DNA from: a virus
Strand: one strand, 5' to 3'
Length of the DNA stretch: 31,942 bases
IMG/VR virus record: IMGVR_UViG_3300025652_000300
Location: 1-31,942 of that record
Part shown: positions 6,055 to 31,742 of the stretch, in pieces
Layout of the letters: every line of letters begins with the position of its first letter
Position numbering within the stretch: the first letter of the stretch is position 1
Notes under the pieces: generated by a model
Database searches by the model: none
Told to the model about the DNA's origin: nothing
Seen by the model: the letters and a program-made list of their open reading frames with translations, nothing else
Made by a program: the position numbers and the translations under genes

Positions 6055-6867
6055 ATGGCTGGTACAGCAGTAGCAGATAAGAAGCAAACTGCCCCCGCCG
6101 AGATCTTTGCCGATATGGCAGAGTTCGCTGGTGAGGGTATGGATTCAATCGGCACCGAGGATATGCAGATTCCGTTCTTGCGGATTCTCCAGCCTCTGTC
6201 GCCAGAGGTGCAGAAGGGTGACGCCAAGTTCATCAAGGGCGCATCCGCAGGTGACCTGTTCAACACTGTTACCCAGCAGGTCTGGGACGGCGAGGACGGC
6301 GTTGTCCTGATCCCGTGTGGGTACACCGTCAAGTATCTCGAGTTCGGCCTGCGTGAGGCTGGTGGCGGCTTCTTCGGCGAGTTGGATCCCAACTCCCCGG
6401 ACGTAAAGAACACCACCCGCAACGGTACGTCAGAGATCCTGCCATCGGGTAATGAGCTTGTCCGCTCGGCACAGCACCTCGTGCTGATCGTCGATACCAA
6501 GACCGGCCAGACGCAGCAGGCGATCTGTGACATGAAGAAGACACAGTTGAAGGTGTCCCGTCGCTGGAATACGCAGATGCGTATGGTGCAGTACGAAGGT
6601 CCGAACGGACTGTTCAACCCGCCGATGTGGGGCACCGCCTGGAAGATGACTGTGATCTCGGAGAGCAATGACAAGGGGACGTGGTACAACTACGGCGTAT
6701 CTCGTGTTGAGCCGACCGAAGTTCCGAGTTCCGCGTTTCACGCTGCGAAAGAATTCTTCCAGTCTTTCCGGTCCGGTGACGTACAGACACAGGCTGGAAC
6801 ACAAGACGAGATGAACAAGCAGTCAAAGGCTGCATCCAGCAACGCGGACGACGATATCCCATTCTAG
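6055..6867 (+). CDS. Single-stranded-DNA-binding-like protein with acidic DDDIPF tip (270 aa)
   Basis: The ATG at 6055 follows AAGGGG. The N-terminal and central regions have many aromatic and beta-type residues (Tyr-Thr-Val-Lys-Tyr-Leu-Glu-Phe, Trp-Lys-Met-Thr-Val-Ile-Ser, Trp-Tyr-Asn-Tyr-Gly-Val), as expected for an OB-like sheet, but I cannot map a standard OB fold. The last 40 residues are polar and disordered and end exactly in Asp-Asp-Asp-Ile-Pro-Phe, the tip by which bacterial SSB recruits partner enzymes. Location just before primase, helicase and polymerase supports an SSB role at the fork. The call rests on this tail and on context, not on a seen DNA-binding motif. Confidence 0.7.
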   Translation: MAGTAVADKKQTAPAEIFADMAEFAGEGMDSIGTEDMQIPFLRILQPLSPEVQKGDAKFIKGASAGDLFNTVTQQVWDGEDGVVLIPCGYTVKYLEFGLREAGGGFFGELDPNSPDVKNTTRNGTSEILPSGNELVRSAQHLVLIVDTKTGQTQQAICDMKKTQLKVSRRWNTQMRMVQYEGPNGLFNPPMWGTAWKMTVISESNDKGTWYNYGVSRVEPTEVPSSAFHAAKEFFQSFRSGDVQTQAGTQDEMNKQSKAASSNADDDIPF

Positions 6868-6990
6868 TCCACCGGGACTTTCACCGTGGTACAGGGGGCT
6901 GCGGAAAGATCAACAGGTCCGGTGGGTGTGCTTCTCCGCACATAGATATTGCTTGTTGATCACCCCCTGCCTTTTTTTATGGGGGCAGGT
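6868..6990 (+). ncRNA. Candidate structured, pseudoknotted leader RNA before the primase gene
   Basis: A 123-base gap in an arm where genes otherwise overlap. On paper it folds compactly: stem A 6892-6898/6963-6969 (CAGGGGG/CCCCCTG); stem B 6908-6918/6951-6961 (11 pairs, two of them G-U); hairpin C 6926-6931/6938-6943; and a perfect 7-bp pseudoknot D 6869-6875/6919-6925 (CCACCGG/CCGGTGG). Strands of B, D and C abut without spare bases. Seven T follow at 6972-6978. The CCCCCTGCC strand can alternatively pair with the GGGGGCAGG ribosome binding site at 6981-6989. I do not recognise a known riboswitch or ribozyme class. Pairings are seen; folding and function are inference. Confidence 0.5.
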
Positions 6991-8520
6991 ATGAACCTAG
7001 CAGAACGGTTCATGGCTGCGTTTGAAGGATTCAGCGCAGCACATGGACAGACACAAATATCAGAAGAACGTCGAGCCGGTAAGCAGAAGGCCAAGTCCTT
7101 TATCGTACGTCAGCCGCTCACGCTCGAGCTTATCGAAGGGCATCTTGCCGGCGACAAGGGTGTTGGCTCGATCCCGATTAAAGAAAACAACAAGTGCTCC
7201 TTCGGAGCACTCGACATCGATCAGTATCCGCTCGACCTTGCAGCGATAGACAAGAGGCTACAAGACAATGACATTCCCGCTGTGGTCTGCCGTTCGAAAT
7301 CAGGTGGCGCACATATCTTCTTCTTTTTCACAGAGGAGATCGGTGCTGGCGAGTTCCGTGACAAGGCGGGTGAGATCAGTGCCTTTCTTGGCTACGGTGG
7401 TTGCGAAGTGTTTCCAAAGCAGGAGCAGCTTCTGGTCGAGCGTGGTGATGTTGGTAACTTTATCAACCTTCCGTACTTTGATTCGGAACAAACGCTCCGT
7501 TACGCAGTTAAGGAAGATGGCGATGAGGCGGAGATCGAGGAGTTCCTAGAGCTTGTCGAAGCGCGGCGGTGTACTCCAGAGGCTTTCGTTACACTGTCTC
7601 TTGGGCGCAGTCTCGACGAGTTCATGGAATACCCACCGTGTATGCAGAGTATGTTCTCTGACGGCGTGCCGGAAGGGACGCGGAACATCGTGATGTTCGG
7701 CACGGCTATCGCCTGTAAAAAGGAGCAGCCGGAGAACTGGAAGTCTCGACTCGAAGAGATCAACATCGCGCACGTTCAGCCTCCGCTGCCGGCGTCAGAG
7801 ATCGTCATCATTCAGCAGCAGCACGAGAAGAAAGAGTACGGCTACCTGTGCCAACAGGAGCCGTTCAAGTCACGCTGCAACAAAGCTCTATGTAAAACAA
7901 AGCAGTTTGGTATCGGTGGGGGTAGTGCCTCCGCTGACATCACTGGCCTGTGCGTGGTCAAGTCGGAGCCTCCGGTCTGGTTCTGCGACGTTGACGGCAA
8001 GCGCGTGGAGTTGATTACCGAGGAGCTACAGACACCGCAGAAGTTTCAGAAGGCATGTATGGAACAGATCCACCTAATGCCACCGATGATGAAGCTGGGT
8101 GACTGGCAGGCTATGGTCACGGTACTGATGTCCGACATGAGCGAGATCGAGGTGCCGGAGGAACTGACATACAAGGGTCAGTTCATGGACTTCCTCGAAG
8201 AGTTCTGCACCGGCAGGGTTCAAGCTGCGAGTCCCGAGGAACTAGCACTGGGCAAGCCGTGGACCGATGACGGACTGACCTACTTCCGTATCGAGTCTTT
8301 GATCAAGTACCTGCGGAACAACCGCTTCGACACTTATAGCCGTGGTCAGATACAGGAGCGCCTGAAGGAACTGAATCCAGATGCGAAGGCATCTGGGGCG
8401 AAGAGCTTTAAGGGTTCTGATGGTCAGTGGAAAAAGATCCGCGTCTGGCACATACCTGCCTTCAATCCCGAGGTCGAAGCTCCGGACATCGACATACAAG
8501 GAGAGGAGGTTCCGTTCTGA
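6991..8520 (+). CDS. Archaeo-eukaryotic-type primase with PriL-like Cys region (509 aa)
   Basis: Synthesises primers for the phage polymerase. The ATG at 6991 has a G-rich site (GGGGGCAGG) just upstream; an in-frame ATG at 6979 has none. The catalytic domain shows motif I Leu-Asp-Ile-Asp (Asp75 and Asp77), motif II Ser-Gly-Gly-Ala-His108, and a following Glu-Val-Phe-Pro strand for motif III. Further on are Pro-Pro-Cys217, an Arg-Asn at 231-232, and Cys287, Cys296 and Cys301, which fit the four-Cys iron-sulphur region known from primase large subunits; thus small- and large-subunit functions appear fused. No helicase domain is present. The C-terminus ends in Gly-Glu-Glu-Val-Pro-Phe, resembling the SSB tip. 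The 5' leader is structured. The stop overlaps the next start (TGATG). Confidence 0.85.
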   Translation: MNLAERFMAAFEGFSAAHGQTQISEERRAGKQKAKSFIVRQPLTLELIEGHLAGDKGVGSIPIKENNKCSFGALDIDQYPLDLAAIDKRLQDNDIPAVVCRSKSGGAHIFFFFTEEIGAGEFRDKAGEISAFLGYGGCEVFPKQEQLLVERGDVGNFINLPYFDSEQTLRYAVKEDGDEAEIEEFLELVEARRCTPEAFVTLSLGRSLDEFMEYPPCMQSMFSDGVPEGTRNIVMFGTAIACKKEQPENWKSRLEEINIAHVQPPLPASEIVIIQQQHEKKEYGYLCQQEPFKSRCNKALCKTKQFGIGGGSASADITGLCVVKSEPPVWFCDVDGKRVELITEELQTPQKFQKACMEQIHLMPPMMKLGDWQAMVTVLMSDMSEIEVPEELTYKGQFMDFLEEFCTGRVQAASPEELALGKPWTDDGLTYFRIESLIKYLRNNRFDTYSRGQIQERLKELNPDAKASGAKSFKGSDGQWKKIRVWHIPAFNPEVEAPDIDIQGEEVPF

Positions 8521-25253: not shown

Positions 25254-26336
25254 CTACAACTCCGCATCCATCTTAAATGTGCCGTCTTTACCGTCATTGT
25301 ATATACATATCGGTTTGCTTTGTGCTGTAGTACCTGACGCAACAGTGGCGTCAACTTCCACAGAGTGCGGCTCTGAATAAGTATTGCTAACAGATGTTAT
25401 GGTTCCAGTGCTTGCGCCGTCGTACCACTGACAGGTTCCGCTGAAAGTTACTGTTGGTGCGACCCTCATAATCACAGGCAACACAGCCGCCAGCCTATTT
25501 AGGCTAGTGCCACTTGAGGCTGTACCCCGCAAAGGATGCTCATTCAAAGACTGATAATACCTCTGACACCTCTGCAACTCATCGCCAAACGACCGATGCT
25601 CAAACGGCGTCTCTTGTTCGCCAAGTTCCATCTGCACTCCGGTGATTTGAAACGTACCATTTGTCGTCATAAACGGGCTTGTTACAGTATGACCGTTTGC
25701 AAATTTTGCGTTGGCATAAGTGTCATCCCAAGCACCTTGTGCGCCACTGTCTGACGTAAAGTCTGTTCCCGCCAGAATAATCCAGTTCAAAGACAGTCCG
25801 AACCCGTTATCGTTTGCGATTGCTGTTGTAGTATGTTCTGGGAAAGTGATGGTTTTGTATTCCCATGTGTTCGTGGAACTTACAGAATATGTTTTGTTGA
25901 CAAGGTCAGAGCCGTCATCTTGGAACAAAGTTAAAGTATACTGACCGGCGGAAGATGCCTTTACCCAAAATGAGGCTGTTACTTTCTGTGCTGCGGATGT
26001 TCCGTAGTTTAGATGCTGAAGATTTTGTGCTTCTAGTTTTGTTCTTACATAGGCAAGGTCATTTGCACCTAGCGCAGATTCTGCGGTTGTGGCTTCAATC
26101 TTATATGAATTTGAAAACCCATCAGGGCTATCAGTAGATTGCGACGTAGTTACAACGAGGTTATCTACGCCAGACTTGCTGAACATAAATCTGTCAACAA
26201 TAAAACTGTTAGCAGCGGCAGCACTATCACTCGTCCCCCGCTGCGCCACCTGCATCGCACCGTTGATAACAAGGTTCCTGTTCGACAACGCTGACTGCGA
26301 ACCAATCAGTGCGGCGAGTTCTGCTGCCTTACTCAT
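25254..26336 (-). CDS. Tail fibre with carbohydrate-binding-module-like domain (360 aa)
   Basis: The N-terminus has a short helix and then Arg-Asn-Leu-Val-Ile-Asn-Gly-Ala-Met-Gln-Val-Ala-Gln-Arg-Gly-Thr, a phrase typical of phage receptor-binding fibres. Residues about 45-240 have jelly-roll-like strands (Ala-Ser-Phe-Trp-Val-Lys, Trp-Glu-Tyr-Lys-Thr-Ile), as in carbohydrate-binding modules. Then comes Gln-Met-Glu-Leu-Gly-x2-Glu-Thr-Pro-Phe-Glu-His-Arg-Ser and Gln-Arg-Cys-Gln-Arg-Tyr-Tyr, the usual close of this domain. The C-terminal 100 residues are a separate beta region. It is translated from a ribosome binding site inside the GDLA repeat of the upstream gene. Sugar binding at the host surface is inferred. 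Confidence 0.8.
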   Translation of the reverse strand: MSKAAELAALIGSQSALSNRNLVINGAMQVAQRGTSDSAAAANSFIVDRFMFSKSGVDNLVVTTSQSTDSPDGFSNSYKIEATTAESALGANDLAYVRTKLEAQNLQHLNYGTSAAQKVTASFWVKASSAGQYTLTLFQDDGSDLVNKTYSVSSTNTWEYKTITFPEHTTTAIANDNGFGLSLNWIILAGTDFTSDSGAQGAWDDTYANAKFANGHTVTSPFMTTNGTFQITGVQMELGEQETPFEHRSFGDELQRCQRYYQSLNEHPLRGTASSGTSLNRLAAVLPVIMRVAPTVTFSGTCQWYDGASTGTITSVSNTYSEPHSVEVDATVASGTTAQSKPICIYNDGKDGTFKMDAEL

Positions 26337-26728
26337 GCGAGGTCTCCGTGTGTTTGTGTGAAGCCATGAGTGTTGTCTGTGGATGAGTCATCAGACCTTG
26401 AAATAAATCTCACCTGCGTAGCAGAGGCTGTGAAAGTGTCATCAGCATCATAAATTATTAATTTAGAAGTGCTTTCTCCCACATCTCTACTGCCAGTAGC
26501 TCCTATTGAATAATTTGTATTACCCATCGCACTTGTGTAGGACAGGGTGTACTTACCCGCAGCATCATCAGATATAGAACTAAGATTTAAACTGTCTCTT
26601 AAAGCGGGAGTGCTAGTGCCGTTGAAATTTGACCAAGCCTTCGCACTACCACCCGCCACAAAGCTGGTGGCAATGCTGTTGTTCCCGCTGGCATCCTTCA
26701 GGGTGTTTACTCGCAGTTCACTAGCCAT
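26333..26728 (-). CDS. GDLA-family tail-fibre protein, copy 1 (131 aa)
   Basis: It belongs to a set of five paralogues in this cassette. Shared layout: a short N-terminal strand (Leu-Arg-Val-Asn-Thr-Leu), Ala-Lys-Ala-Trp-Ser-Asn-Phe-Asn-Gly-Thr, a Leu-Arg-Asp-Ser-Leu-Asn-Leu-Ser-Ser-Ile segment, Tyr-Thr-Leu-x4-Ala-Met, a variable second half, and the C-terminus Gly-Asp-Leu-Ala. The conserved first half looks like a collar or trimerisation unit and the variable half like a tip; both are inferences. The variable half here ends in Gly-Phe-Thr-Gln-Thr-His-Gly-Asp-Leu-Ala. Confidence 0.75.
   Translation of the reverse strand: MASELRVNTLKDASGNNSIATSFVAGGSAKAWSNFNGTSTPALRDSLNLSSISDDAAGKYTLSYTSAMGNTNYSIGATGSRDVGESTSKLIIYDADDTFTASATQVRFISRSDDSSTDNTHGFTQTHGDLA
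26337..26347 (-). repeat. GDLA junction repeat, copy 1
   Basis: GGAGACCTCGC on the minus strand, encoding Gly-Asp-Leu plus the first bases of Ala at the end of copy 1. The GGAG serves as ribosome binding site for the CBM-like fibre, whose ATG is at 26336. Confidence 0.75.
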
Positions 26729-27117
26729 TATGCGAGGTCTCCATGAATTGCCTGATTGTTTCTAGCATTGTCATTAGTCAAGCTATCAGTCCTAGCAAAA
26801 ATCCTGACGTTATAACTTGAGGCTGCTCTTTCAGGTTCGTCAAACGACAAGATAGCTGCATAAGAAGCGCAAGCGGTAATTGAGTAGTCGTCATTGCTCA
26901 TTACGTTGGTAAAGGCATAGGTGTAGTCGCCGGTTCCATTGTCCGTTCCTGATGCCGTGTTGAACGAGTCAAATGGCTGTGCGTCTGTAAAAGCGGCAAC
27001 CCACATTTTTGTCAGCCCCTGCTGCAACCGCATCGTAGCCGTACCTTCGCCGGTAATCGTGATATCACCTGCGCTGGTTACACCCTGCATGCTATCTACT
27101 TTAAGTATGCTTGCCAT
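26728..27117 (-). CDS. GDLA-family tail-fibre protein, copy 2, divergent (129 aa)
   Basis: The most divergent of the five paralogues: Ile-Leu-Lys-Val-Asp-Ser at the start, Met-Trp-Val-Ala-Ala-Phe in place of the Ala-Lys-Ala-Trp element, then the recognisable Phe-Asp-Ser-Phe-Asn, Asp-Asn-Gly-Thr-Gly-Asp-Tyr-Thr and Met-Ser-Asn-Asp-Asp-Tyr-Ser. The second half is unrelated to the other copies, and the C-terminus is again His-Gly-Asp-Leu-Ala. The stop and next start form TAATG. Probably another fibre subunit. Confidence 0.75.
   Translation of the reverse strand: MASILKVDSMQGVTSAGDITITGEGTATMRLQQGLTKMWVAAFTDAQPFDSFNTASGTDNGTGDYTYAFTNVMSNDDYSITACASYAAILSFDEPERAASSYNVRIFARTDSLTNDNARNNQAIHGDLA
26732..26742 (-). 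repeat. GDLA junction repeat, copy 2
   Basis: Identical 11-base core, at the end of the copy 2 gene, followed by ATAATG, where the copy 1 gene begins. Confidence 0.75.
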
Positions 27118-27551
27118 TACGCGAGGTCTCCTGTGATATTTGCGGAGATATAGTTTCCGTCTGACGAACCAAAAGCACCATCAGACCCATTGTTAAAAAT
27201 GTGACTTATGCGGTAGGTGGTTGTAGTTGGTGTCTGACCATCTTTAAACACAGCAAAATAAGTTCTAGCAGTAAAAACGTGAGAGTAGTTGGCGTTGGAC
27301 ATCGCTGATGTCATTGTATGCGTATAATCGCCAGTGCCATTGTCTGTAACGGAAGAAATATTAAAAGAGTCATACAAGCTGATGGTTCCAGTGCCATTCA
27401 ACTTGCTCCACGCCTTCGCCAGCCCCTGCACAACATTAGTTGTTGCACTCCCACCTTCAGCAACAGCGACAGCGTTGTTGGCAACCTTAACATTCGTGCC
27501 ACCAGAGCCAGCCTTGTCTACAATGGTATCTACGTTAAGTTGGCTGGTCAT
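27117..27551 (-). CDS. GDLA-family tail-fibre protein, copy 3 (144 aa)
   Basis: The longest paralogue, with a Gly/Val/Asn-rich insert after the start. It shows Ala-Lys-Ala-Trp-Ser-Lys-Leu-Asn-Gly-Thr-Gly-Thr, Tyr-Asp-Ser-Phe-Asn-Ile-Ser-Ser-Val, Gly-Thr-Gly-Asp-Tyr-Thr, and Ala-Met-Ser-Asn-Ala-Asn-Tyr-Ser. The second half is distinct and ends in Ile-Thr-Gly-Asp-Leu-Ala. It overlaps the preceding fibre gene by four bases (ATGA). Confidence 0.75.
   Translation of the reverse strand: MTSQLNVDTIVDKAGSGGTNVKVANNAVAVAEGGSATTNVVQGLAKAWSKLNGTGTISLYDSFNISSVTDNGTGDYTHTMTSAMSNANYSHVFTARTYFAVFKDGQTPTTTTYRISHIFNNGSDGAFGSSDGNYISANITGDLA
27121..27131 (-). repeat. GDLA junction repeat, copy 3
   Basis: Identical 11-base core at the end of the copy 3 gene, followed by GTAATG. 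Only the base after the core differs from copy 2. Confidence 0.75.
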
Positions 27552-29189: not shown

Positions 29190-29669
29190 TTATGCGGCTA
29201 CAGTTTCATCAGTGGCTAGATCTTCACTAATCTTCCAAGCATTGCGCCACTCACGAGTCGCTGGAAGCTGTTCCTTTCGACAGATTAACATCTTGGGCTT
29301 GTTGCCGCTATCATAGTCACGCCACACGGATTGCGGCACGTCTTTCATGATCAGATACTCAATAGCCTGTTCTTCGGTCATTGCATCGACAGGCTTGGTG
29401 TTGTGCAACAGGTAGCCACGAGTGTGCTTGGTGAAGCCCTCTTCGGCCTCGTCCTTGGCAAGCTCCCAATACACTTCTACCGGCGGCAATATCCCACCTT
29501 GCAGCGCACAAGCCATCCAGTTGGGGTCTGGCACCAGTATCTTGGCGCACTCGTCTACCTTGTCTTCATACACGACACGATAGTCTGACTGCACACCCTC
29601 AAGGTTCTCTTTGGCCCAGCAGAGCCTGTCCCATAGATGTGTGCCTTGAAACTCTGGGGTCACTGTCAT
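29190..29669 (-). CDS. Putative tail-fibre-associated or chaperone protein (159 aa)
   Basis: Mostly soluble alpha/beta, unlike the beta-rich fibres. Recognisable phrases are Glu-Val-Tyr-Trp-Glu, Glu-Glu-Gln-Ala-Ile-Glu-Tyr-Leu-Ile-Met-Lys-Asp-Val-Pro, Val-Trp-Arg-Asp and Leu-Pro-Ala-Thr-Arg-Glu-Trp-Arg-Asn-Ala-Trp-Lys. I recall the latter half from short proteins in marine-phage tail regions, with no proven role. It is expressed from the GDLA-repeat ribosome binding site of the upstream gene. Assembly function is inferred from neighbours only. Confidence 0.6.
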   Translation of the reverse strand: MTVTPEFQGTHLWDRLCWAKENLEGVQSDYRVVYEDKVDECAKILVPDPNWMACALQGGILPPVEVYWELAKDEAEEGFTKHTRGYLLHNTKPVDAMTEEQAIEYLIMKDVPQSVWRDYDSGNKPKMLICRKEQLPATREWRNAWKISEDLATDETVAA

Positions 29670-30052
29670 GCGAGGTCTCCTAAAAAACTTGTAGATACTT
29701 CAGCTTGATCTAGCGCACTACCTGTACTTGTTTGAAATCCAAAAAAATCAGCGGCTCCGGTAGTTTTGCCATCCGCTTCGGCTATTACATTGTATCTGCC
29801 AGAAGTATCTGCACCTCCAGAACAGGGGGTCGCATAGCTGGAGTTTGACATACTACTTGTTAGTGTAGCTGTGTAGTCTCCGGTTCCATTATCAGTTATA
29901 GAAGTAAGATTAAAGGAACTTCGTAGTGCAGCAGTGCTTTCACCATCCAGATTCATCCACGCCTTCGCACTACCATTCACGACATAATTCGTAGCCAGCG
30001 AACCCGCAGTCGAGTGCGTCAGGGTATCTGCTTTGAGTGTACCGAATGCCAT
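29666..30052 (-). CDS. GDLA-family tail-fibre protein, copy 4 (128 aa)
   Basis: It has Leu-Lys-Ala-Asp-Thr-Leu at the start, Ala-Lys-Ala-Trp-Met-Asn-Leu-Asp-Gly, Leu-Arg-Ser-Ser-Phe-Asn-Leu-Thr-Ser-Ile-Thr-Asp-Asn-Gly-Thr-Gly-Asp-Tyr, and Met-Ser-Asn-Ser-Ser-Tyr; the second half is its own (Cys-Ser-Gly-Gly-Ala-Asp, Ala-Asp-Phe-Phe-Gly-Phe) and ends Leu-Gly-Asp-Leu-Ala. The downstream gene is not a fibre paralogue, so the repeat at its end is not merely tandem duplication. Confidence 0.75.
   Translation of the reverse strand: MAFGTLKADTLTHSTAGSLATNYVVNGSAKAWMNLDGESTAALRSSFNLTSITDNGTGDYTATLTSSMSNSSYATPCSGGADTSGRYNVIAEADGKTTGAADFFGFQTSTGSALDQAEVSTSFLGDLA
29670..29680 (-). repeat. GDLA junction repeat, copy 4
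   Basis: Identical 11-base core at the end of the copy 4 gene; the next gene, starting at 29669, is the unrelated putative chaperone-like protein. Confidence 0.75.
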
Positions 30053-31350
30053 TACTCACCTGCCTCCAGGGCTGCGACCTTAGTTTCAAGCGTTTCAATC
30101 TTGGCAATCAACTGCTGAATGACGGAAACATACATCGCATCCTTCTGACCCAGCTTTGACGTTTTTGCGAAGCGTGCTACTCGTTGTGTGTCCGTCTCAG
30201 CAGCATCATCAGGCTTGTATATGTTGTTTGGGCCATAGGGAATGTCTGTATCGGGCAGATATTGATAGTCGTCACTGTCTGACTGCACTTCAATTTCGTT
30301 CACCCAGTATGAATCTATAGCTTCTAATTCCTGTGCGACAAATCCTCGTACCTCCGACTTTTCTCCGTGCAGCGTTGGCTGCTTCCAGTTGAATGTGCGG
30401 GTCTGAAACTGTTTGAACTTGGCAAGATCATAAGCATAGTCTGCGATATTCTCCTTCAATCTCTGGTCGGAGTTAGAGGCGATAGAGGTGTCTGTCGCCG
30501 TCAGATCCCCGTTCGGCGCAACACGAAATTTTTCAGAAATCTCACCATCACCGCTGTTTGATGAGCTATCAACATTGGTGCTTGTTCTGATTACAAATGC
30601 GCCGGGAGCGTTTCCGTCAGCCGTCCTAACAACGCCGATTCCTGCCATAACACCGGCGCTATTCTCGTTGCGCCAATCAAGGCGCTGACTTTGCAAGCCC
30701 TGAGATGTTTCGTTCGTGATCGTCTGAAACTCAAGTCGCCCAGTTTCTGACAGGCGCATACGCTCACCTCTGTCGCCCCCATCAGCTTTGGTGAAAAAAC
30801 TTAACTTGCCCCCGCTGTTATTTCCTGTTCCGACCATTTTTGCTTGGATACCAGTGACATCGTTCACGAAAGATGTGCCACTTCCTGAACCGGCATTGGT
30901 CCTATTGTAAAATACAAGTTCACCTAAATCGCCGCCGTCAGAATTAACCGTGGAAGAGATAGCCAAATCTCCACTATCCACATTCAACTTTGATACAGGC
31001 GAAGTCGTGGAGATGCCGACGTTGCCGCTGGTATCAATCAAAAACCTATTTGCACCACCCGTTTCATCACGCACGACATAGGCGTTACTCTGGTCTGTGC
31101 GGATTTGTGTGGAATAGTGACGGCTTGAGTTTTTAACACTCATGGTCGCATAGTTAGCGCCAGTGCTTTCAACCCTAAGTTCTGGGTTTCCGCTTGCTGT
31201 TTGGATGTGGGTTTCAACCGCTGGTGATGTCGTCCCCACACCCAGCTTATGACCAGACGCAACTACAACATCGCCAGTGCCATCCGGGTCGATGGTGATG
31301 TCGTTGTTACTCGCAAGGCTGGAGATTTTGTTTGTCTTTACTTCACTCAT
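30052..31350 (-). CDS. Long tail fibre with Peptidase_S74 chaperone domain (432 aa)
   Basis: The main fibre of this cassette. Residues 35-45 and 109-120 have Val-Gly-(Val/Ile)-x-Thr-Thr-Ser-Pro repeats characteristic of S74 fibres; the stalk to about 290 is Gly/Ser/Thr/Asp-rich beta structure. Ser294-Asp-Gln-Arg-Leu-Lys299 holds the self-cleavage dyad, followed by Gly-Phe-Val-Ala-Gln-Glu-Leu-Glu and a C-terminal coiled coil (Ile-Glu-Thr-Leu-Glu-Thr-Lys-Val-Ala-Ala-Leu-Glu). The released chaperone would be about 139 residues, larger than in the other S74 fibre because of an acidic insert (Ser-Asp-Ser-Asp-Asp-Tyr-Gln). Its start uses the GDLA-repeat ribosome binding site. Confidence 0.9.
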   Translation of the reverse strand: MSEVKTNKISSLASNNDITIDPDGTGDVVVASGHKLGVGTTSPAVETHIQTASGNPELRVESTGANYATMSVKNSSRHYSTQIRTDQSNAYVVRDETGGANRFLIDTSGNVGISTTSPVSKLNVDSGDLAISSTVNSDGGDLGELVFYNRTNAGSGSGTSFVNDVTGIQAKMVGTGNNSGGKLSFFTKADGGDRGERMRLSETGRLEFQTITNETSQGLQSQRLDWRNENSAGVMAGIGVVRTADGNAPGAFVIRTSTNVDSSSNSGDGEISEKFRVAPNGDLTATDTSIASNSDQRLKENIADYAYDLAKFKQFQTRTFNWKQPTLHGEKSEVRGFVAQELEAIDSYWVNEIEVQSDSDDYQYLPDTDIPYGPNNIYKPDDAAETDTQRVARFAKTSKLGQKDAMYVSVIQQLIAKIETLETKVAALEAGE

Positions 31351-31742
31351 GCGAGGTCTCCCTGCAAATTGTGCGTAATATATTTTGAATCAAATACAGT
31401 TTCACCCACATCAACTGTTTGAACTTGTTGTGCAGACGTAGAATTATCTATTTCAGCAGAATTGTTTCCGTGCATGATTTGAAGATTGATACTAAACTTA
31501 ACGCCGTAATTCGGAGCGCAATTTCCAACGATACTGTAATCGTTATTACTCATAGCCGAAGTAACAGTGGTTATGTAATCCCCCGTTCCATCGTCTGCGA
31601 TTGACGATATGTTAAAGCTATCTCTTGTTGCAATTGTCCCTGTACCATTAAAATTAATCCAAGCCTTCGCAGCGTGCTGCTTTGTCAGCGTGGCCGCTCC
31701 GCCGCTGGTGCTTTGGATGGTATCTGCCTTCAACGTGCTCAT
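31347..31742 (-). CDS. GDLA-family tail-fibre protein, copy 5 (131 aa)
   Basis: It shows all family marks: Thr-Leu-Lys-Ala-Asp-Thr-Ile, Ala-Lys-Ala-Trp-Ile-Asn-Phe-Asn-Gly-Thr-Gly-Thr, Arg-Asp-Ser-Phe-Asn-Ile-Ser-Ser-Ile, Gly-Thr-Gly-Asp-Tyr and Met-Ser-Asn-Asn-Asp-Tyr-Ser-Ile. The second half is distinctive (Ser-Ala-Gln-Gln-Val-Gln-Thr-Val) and it ends Gln-Gly-Asp-Leu-Ala. The start overlaps the upstream gene by four bases (ATGA). Confidence 0.75.
   Translation of the reverse strand: MSTLKADTIQSTSGGAATLTKQHAAKAWINFNGTGTIATRDSFNISSIADDGTGDYITTVTSAMSNNDYSIVGNCAPNYGVKFSINLQIMHGNNSAEIDNSTSAQQVQTVDVGETVFDSKYITHNLQGDLA
31351..31361 (-). repeat. GDLA junction repeat, copy 5
   Basis: Identical 11-base core at the end of the copy 5 gene; the next gene, starting at 31350, is the long S74 fibre. 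Confidence 0.75.

Follow-up and report, generated by a model that had tools for sequence, protein, structure and literature searches.

A predicted compound pseudoknot RNA between the SSB-like and primase genes of uncultivated phages

What does a structured RNA do when it lies between the genes of an SSB-like protein and a primase? The question is raised by IMG/VR record IMGVR_UViG_3300025652_000300, the whole of which (31,942 nt) was analysed and is hereafter called the window. In this virus, 123 nt separate the SSB-like stop codon (6865-6867) from the primase ATG at 6991, and the RNA element occupies positions 6868-6990. A first-pass annotation, made from the letters of the DNA, had drawn attention to this gap, correctly as to its length and position, and had proposed that it encodes a compact pseudoknotted RNA with the logic of a riboswitch or attenuator.

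The upstream product is probably an SSB-like protein, a designation based on its C-terminal tip and on gene order; comparison with the PDB by sequence and by structure (model pLDDT 71) gave no significant match. Both this protein (DDDIPF, 6850-6867) and the primase (EEVPF, 8505-8520) end in an acidic-Pro-Phe tip. These tips resemble the tip of bacterial SSB, and their final residues are kept in relatives. Relatives were collected by a protein scan of IMG/VR, which gave 61 loci and was enlarged later.

Architecture and conservation of the spacer RNA

The gap is predicted to fold as a compound pseudoknot, the parts of which are listed in Table 1. In the 5' to 3' direction, the order is A, a joiner, B, 2 nt, C, B', the A-rich joiner, D, A', the optional hairpin E, D', one A and C'. 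The loop of stem B has 9 nt and contains the G-rich strand of the long-range helix C; since it consists of 2 nt plus strand C, B and C together form a classical H-type pseudoknot. Helix D is inserted into the third loop of this core, and the partner strand of A lies in the loop of D. Helix A starts within a few nucleotides of the SSB-like stop codon, and C' ends ~20-25 nt upstream of the primase ATG, so that the B/C core lies upstream of the ribosome-binding site of the neighbouring gene. All four pairings that had been noticed initially (A, C, D and E) were recovered, as were the seven T residues that follow them. Stem B had been overlooked, and hairpin E is not a conserved helix, as several relatives lack it.

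Table 1. Coordinates of the genes and RNA features discussed in the text.
Feature	Position	Strand	Remarks
SSB-like gene	6055..6867	+	Pam3 gp34-like, PF23977, phrog_2402; acidic end DDDIPF; stop codon adjoins the RNA
Strand A	6869..6875	+	with 6919-6925; pseudoknot crossing D and C; two-sided changes in 6/7 pairs
Strand B	6884..6889	+	6-bp stem with 6899-6904
Strand C (CAGGGGG)	6892..6898	+	within the B loop; partner 6963-6969; 100% of cells paired
Strand B'	6899..6904	+	pairs with B
A-rich joiner	6905..6907	+	precedes D; final base A in 35/35 parsed sequences
Strand D	6908..6918	+	11 bp (two G-U) with 6951-6961; two-sided changes in 8/11 pairs
Strand A'	6919..6925	+	directly abuts strand D; pairs with A
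Optional hairpin E	6926..6943	+	6926-6931/6938-6943; pyrimidine-rich loop; missing in some relatives
Strand D'	6951..6961	+	pairs with D
Linker A, unpaired	6962	+	between D' and C'; in 35/35 parsed sequences (also the parsing anchor); invariant in the 22-sequence alignment
Strand C' (CCCCCTG)	6963..6969	+	pairs with C
Competing hairpin 6966-6974/6981-6989	6966..6989	+	closes the primase ribosome-binding site; shares 6966-6969 with C'
Seven-T run	6972..6978	+	only in the clade of the window
Archaeo-eukaryotic-type (AEP-type) primase gene	6991..8520	+	PF22548; phrog_21866

The pseudoknotted RNA is confirmed by very strong comparative evidence, and the case for it is stronger than when it was first stated. 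Two controls were used, both of which lean toward the fold, given that the window supplied the structure and that the parser looked for well-paired strands: in the alignment of 22 divergent relatives, 96.4% of the pair cells hold and 118 cells carry two-sided changes, against 38-54% and 8-24 cells when the partners are slid by 1-3 columns; and among 35 parsed gaps, pairing is 100% for native strands of helix A, 97% for B and 97% for D, against 60, 63 and 70%, respectively, when the strands are swapped between types. Neither the size of the effect nor the two-sided changes seen in A, B and D depend on this lean. None of 500 shuffles reached a covariation score as high as that observed, and stem B is conserved to the same degree as A and D. 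Helix C is mostly invariant in sequence, with concerted changes in L038 (CGGGGGG/CCCCCCG), in L212 (CGGGGG/CCCCCG) and, by inspection, in L164 (TGGAGGT/ACCTCCA).

The nested fold of the window by itself is only moderately unusual (z = -2.4, from nested energies that ignore pseudoknots). Most gaps fold better than their own shuffles (median z = -2.7), and some pseudoknot gaps, when folded without pseudoknots, are no more stable than shuffles. The first-pass annotation would have counted against itself either a lack of compensatory changes or a related phage in which the gap is deleted with no structure left; covariation is clear, yet relatives without the pseudoknot do exist. L032 and L033, for instance, have a 32-nt gap with no pseudoknot, and only a hairpin over the ribosome site is kept.

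Occurrence and exchange for other structures

The element was found at a single kind of locus. A sequence-free descriptor of B + C + D (24 pairs, no mismatch), applied to 663 kb of sequence from loci that had been gathered either as relatives or through pattern matches, returned this gap and one chance match on the minus strand of L081, and shuffled sequence gave no match. When 39 records were searched whole with a covariance model, 15 matched, with one convincing match per positive record, located in the SSB-like/primase gap; a weak second match in one relative (E = 0.007), antisense to a frame matching the large virion-protein ORF of the window, was taken as chance. A pattern scan of all IMG/VR contigs located the motif only in the SSB-like/primase gap, apart from chance matches; the other pattern matches (L065, L078, L081, L083, L084, L090 and L093) were discarded on inspection for lack of the flanks and the full structure. 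A genome collection search added only three distant primase loci. The gap has no match in Rfam 15 at the gathering threshold or at E ≤ 10, which upholds the earlier view that it cannot be assigned to a known class, and no description of the pseudoknot RNA was found in the literature searched. It adds to the known repertoire an RNA family absent from Rfam, with very strong covariation support, which occurs in many uncultivated phages at a replication-gene junction.

Several classes were rejected. A metabolite riboswitch finds no family match in Rfam 15, and as a ligand pocket the RNA has few conserved unpaired residues (linker A and the A before D), with near-identical flanks that occur without the fold. 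A self-cleaving ribozyme (pistol, twister or HDV-like) was dismissed in the absence of a known-family match in Rfam; the helix order of the element also differs from that of HDV. As for a readthrough or frameshift fusion of the SSB-like protein and the primase, the two are in frame in the window, but relatives have gaps of 124 nt and of other lengths that are no multiple of three; with the frame not maintained across the gap, the element is not a recoding signal.

The pseudoknot is present in about half of the gaps sampled, counted as distinct gap sequences among the best-scoring matches listed. On the primase tree (n = 101), the pseudoknot is found in 47 gaps and a plain hairpin in 51, and at least nine changes between these classes, which were partly assigned by eye, are forced by well-supported branches. 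The structures seen in the spacer comprise compound pseudoknots, bare H-type pseudoknots (as in L287, where B/C occurs without A and D), plain hairpins and a 226-nt multi-hairpin. The plain hairpins are strong and lack the T-run, and one is found at the same place in the distant named phages DSL-LC04, 023Pt_psg01, R26L and HTVC027P. In L295 and L301, the plain hairpin of the L294 type is kept with an insert of 120-155 nt in its loop, which is itself predicted to be structured. In L263 (MW202510.1), the gene annotated directly upstream of the primase is on the opposite strand, and the gap of 24 nt has no hairpin.

Structures are swapped even between phages whose flanking genes are 90-99% identical. 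Very similar flanks enclose different structures in L021/L203, L179/L180, L323/L325, L014/L016 and L217/L287, and in the first three of these pairs SSB-like proteins that are ~96-99% identical accompany unrelated gap structures. L021, which has the pseudoknot, and L203 share 99% identity in both flanking proteins, and their gaps are unrelated. The 226-nt multi-hairpin gap of L203 is 97% identical to that of L238, with flanks that are 55% (SSB-like) and 75% (primase) identical; this identity begins exactly at the upstream stop codon and extends a few codons into the primase. Similarly, the pseudoknots of L051 and L235 are 90% identical and their flanks 50 and 72%. Several swaps change the structure and leave the ribosome-site tail with the primase, and the element shows only weak partial correlations with either flanking gene. 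The spacer offers a natural experiment, in which near-identical flanks come with a pseudoknot, a plain hairpin or almost nothing between the two genes; owing to these flanks, the effect of an intercistronic fold on phage gene dosage is testable by direct swaps.

Pairing at the primase ribosome-binding site

The C-rich strand had also been proposed to pair with the ribosome-binding site of the primase. Such a pairing exists, although the strand involved is 6966-6974 rather than 6963-6971, and its partner is 6981-6989 (CCUGCCUUU/GGGGGCAGG). The resulting hairpin has a predicted energy of -13.8 kcal/mol, which becomes -2.3 kcal/mol when C' is held in the pseudoknot; through the shared positions 6966-6969, the pseudoknot and the sequestered state are mutually exclusive in the window. 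Thus, the two exclusive partners of C' hold for this phage, but they do not constitute a general rule. A ribosome site sequestered in a stable hairpin is found in the window and not in all relatives: eight pseudoknot types have local hairpins that are weak (-0.7 to -3.4 kcal/mol), and strong hairpins in L021 and L032 are built from different sequence. Across 20 types, native partners show no better complementarity of C' to the ribosome site than swapped ones do (permutation p = 0.89), which disposes of a general ribosome-site switch; since selection is undetectable family-wide, the coupling appears to be a clade-specific addition. Pairing between the E loop and the ribosome site gave p = 0.10.

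Hairpins of -11 kcal/mol (timP) and -9 kcal/mol (MS2 coat) have been called prohibitive (PMC11228461). Judged by this benchmark, a hairpin as stable as that of the window should block initiation, and the pseudoknot would therefore be the natural ON state here, which makes the clade of the window a clean candidate for pseudoknot-gated translation.

The Shine-Dalgarno (SD) region of the primase is unusual (GGGGGCAGG, 6980-6990), and GGAG-type sites precede many of the window's other genes. Structures of this gap that otherwise have nothing in common repeatedly contain a pyrimidine motif (UUCCUUUCC, CCUCC) in loops: in hairpin loops of L041, L242, L261 and others, in the E loops of L005, L014 and L030, and in a single-stranded joiner of L162. 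It could be an anti-SD-like or protein (S1) site.

Candidate functions of the intercistronic element

The repeated replacement of the pseudoknot by a plain hairpin suggests that the element sets the expression of the two adjoining replication genes. We give not quite an even chance to a cis-acting intercistronic element that separates SSB-like from primase expression, with gating of the ribosome site added in this clade. The RNA would act in cis within a message spanning both genes, where its fold would most likely be a stable barrier between their expression, for example by keeping 3' exonucleases away from the SSB-like message and by insulating initiation at the primase. In this phage, the ribosome site would be open with C' in the pseudoknot, and release of C' would allow the hairpin to close it. 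A barrier is suggested by the fold and its covariation, the constant placement directly after the SSB-like stop codon, the interchange with plain hairpins and the gaps that fold better than shuffles; because unrelated structures serve with near-identical flanks, most likely any stable fold can fill the function. Gating in the clade is suggested by the drop from -13.8 to -2.3 kcal/mol together with a primase that lacks a GGAG-type SD. However, a simple barrier leaves the exact 11-bp D, the 6-bp B, the 2-nt loop and linker A unexplained, L032 and L033 do without one, and the stability of some pseudoknot gaps, folded without pseudoknots, does not exceed that of their shuffles; the swap test further speaks against gating as a trait of the family. 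Stabilizing hairpins, intercistronic or 3', in bacterial operons offer a parallel to the plain hairpins found at the same place in many relatives, whereas the pseudoknot is far more elaborate and tightly conserved.

A dedicated translational switch of the primase, with the pseudoknot as ON and the C'/ribosome-site hairpin as OFF, is possible but on balance unlikely. Its trigger might be a ligand, a small RNA, ribosome traffic at the SSB-like stop codon, or ribosomal protein S1, which would recognise a stand-by site in the pseudoknot in the way suggested for the timP and tisB messages. There, pseudoknot and ribosome-site hairpin are likewise exclusive states, and the pseudoknot is needed for translation from a sequestered start (PMC11228461); here, the strong hairpin is confined to some clades, no antitoxin RNA is known, and the element is intercistronic instead of 5' terminal. 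The energy of the SD hairpin, which exceeds both prohibitive values and largely vanishes when C' is in the pseudoknot, the atypical SD of the primase, and the strong hairpins that L021 and L032 form from different sequence all fit a switch, but the lack of co-variation between C' and the ribosome site over 20 types, the merely weak local hairpin of eight pseudoknot types and the exchange of the structure while the ribosome-site tail stays do not. The riboswitch or attenuator logic proposed at first thus survives only in the two exclusive partners of C' in this phage; it fails in that there is no co-variation across types and that near-identical flanks carry a plain hairpin, and the interchange at 90-99% identical flanks disfavours a riboswitch and a specific operator alike.

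It is rather improbable that the spacer is an RNA-cassette locus, in which structured RNAs are exchanged horizontally as units with precise limits, reaching from the upstream stop codon toward the primase start, under selection for change, e.g. to escape or counter RNA-acting factors of hosts or rival phages. We regard as improbable a translational operator for the SSB-like or another phage protein in the manner of T4 gene 32. The gene 32 operators of T4 and RB69 resemble our element in that their H-type pseudoknot precedes a ribosome-binding site close to an SSB-like gene of a phage and in that structure is kept more than sequence, relaxed sequence and strict structure being the rule in T4 operators (PMC535899). 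Nevertheless, the T4 pseudoknot precedes the autoregulated gene 32, whereas ours lies downstream of the SSB-like gene, in the spacer before the primase; it adds helices A and D, and no UUAAA repeats were seen. The protein, itself only a putative SSB, remains conserved across replacements of the structure by other folds; since near-identical proteins (~96-99%) accompany unrelated structures, the element is probably not a specific operator for it.

A free small RNA or mobile RNA cassette that acts in trans (e.g. in counter-defence) and is parked between the genes is very improbable: the gap moves as a unit in L203/L238 and L051/L235, and its content changes faster than the genes, but its location never varies, the 39 records searched whole gave no convincing copy elsewhere, and plain hairpins substitute for the pseudoknot. 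Least of all do we credit a leaky intrinsic terminator or attenuator after the SSB-like gene. In this clade, the GC-rich C/C' helix is followed by CC and seven T, but most types that share the fold lack the T-run, as do the plain hairpins, and a terminator scan (loops over 8 nt lie outside it) raised no flag. A stem with a U-run is not kept in relatives, and since the run is clade-specific, termination is not the shared function.

Other pseudoknot RNAs show partial likeness. Three-stem H-type pseudoknots, which occur in some riboswitches and frameshift signals, also have an H-type core with an extra loop stem (PMC11262651); in our case, A additionally crosses the inserted stem D, and the element lies downstream of a stop codon. 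STAXI (RF01728) is a pseudoknot RNA often found near SSB, integrase and topoisomerase genes (PMC2864571), but it occurs in two to three tandem copies, whereas the element of the window is single and has no Rfam match.

Elsewhere in the window, the minus strand carries a run of small, paralogous-looking ORFs ending in GDLA (26333-27551, 29666-30052 and 31347-31742), which are consistent with repeated tail or fibre-associated proteins.
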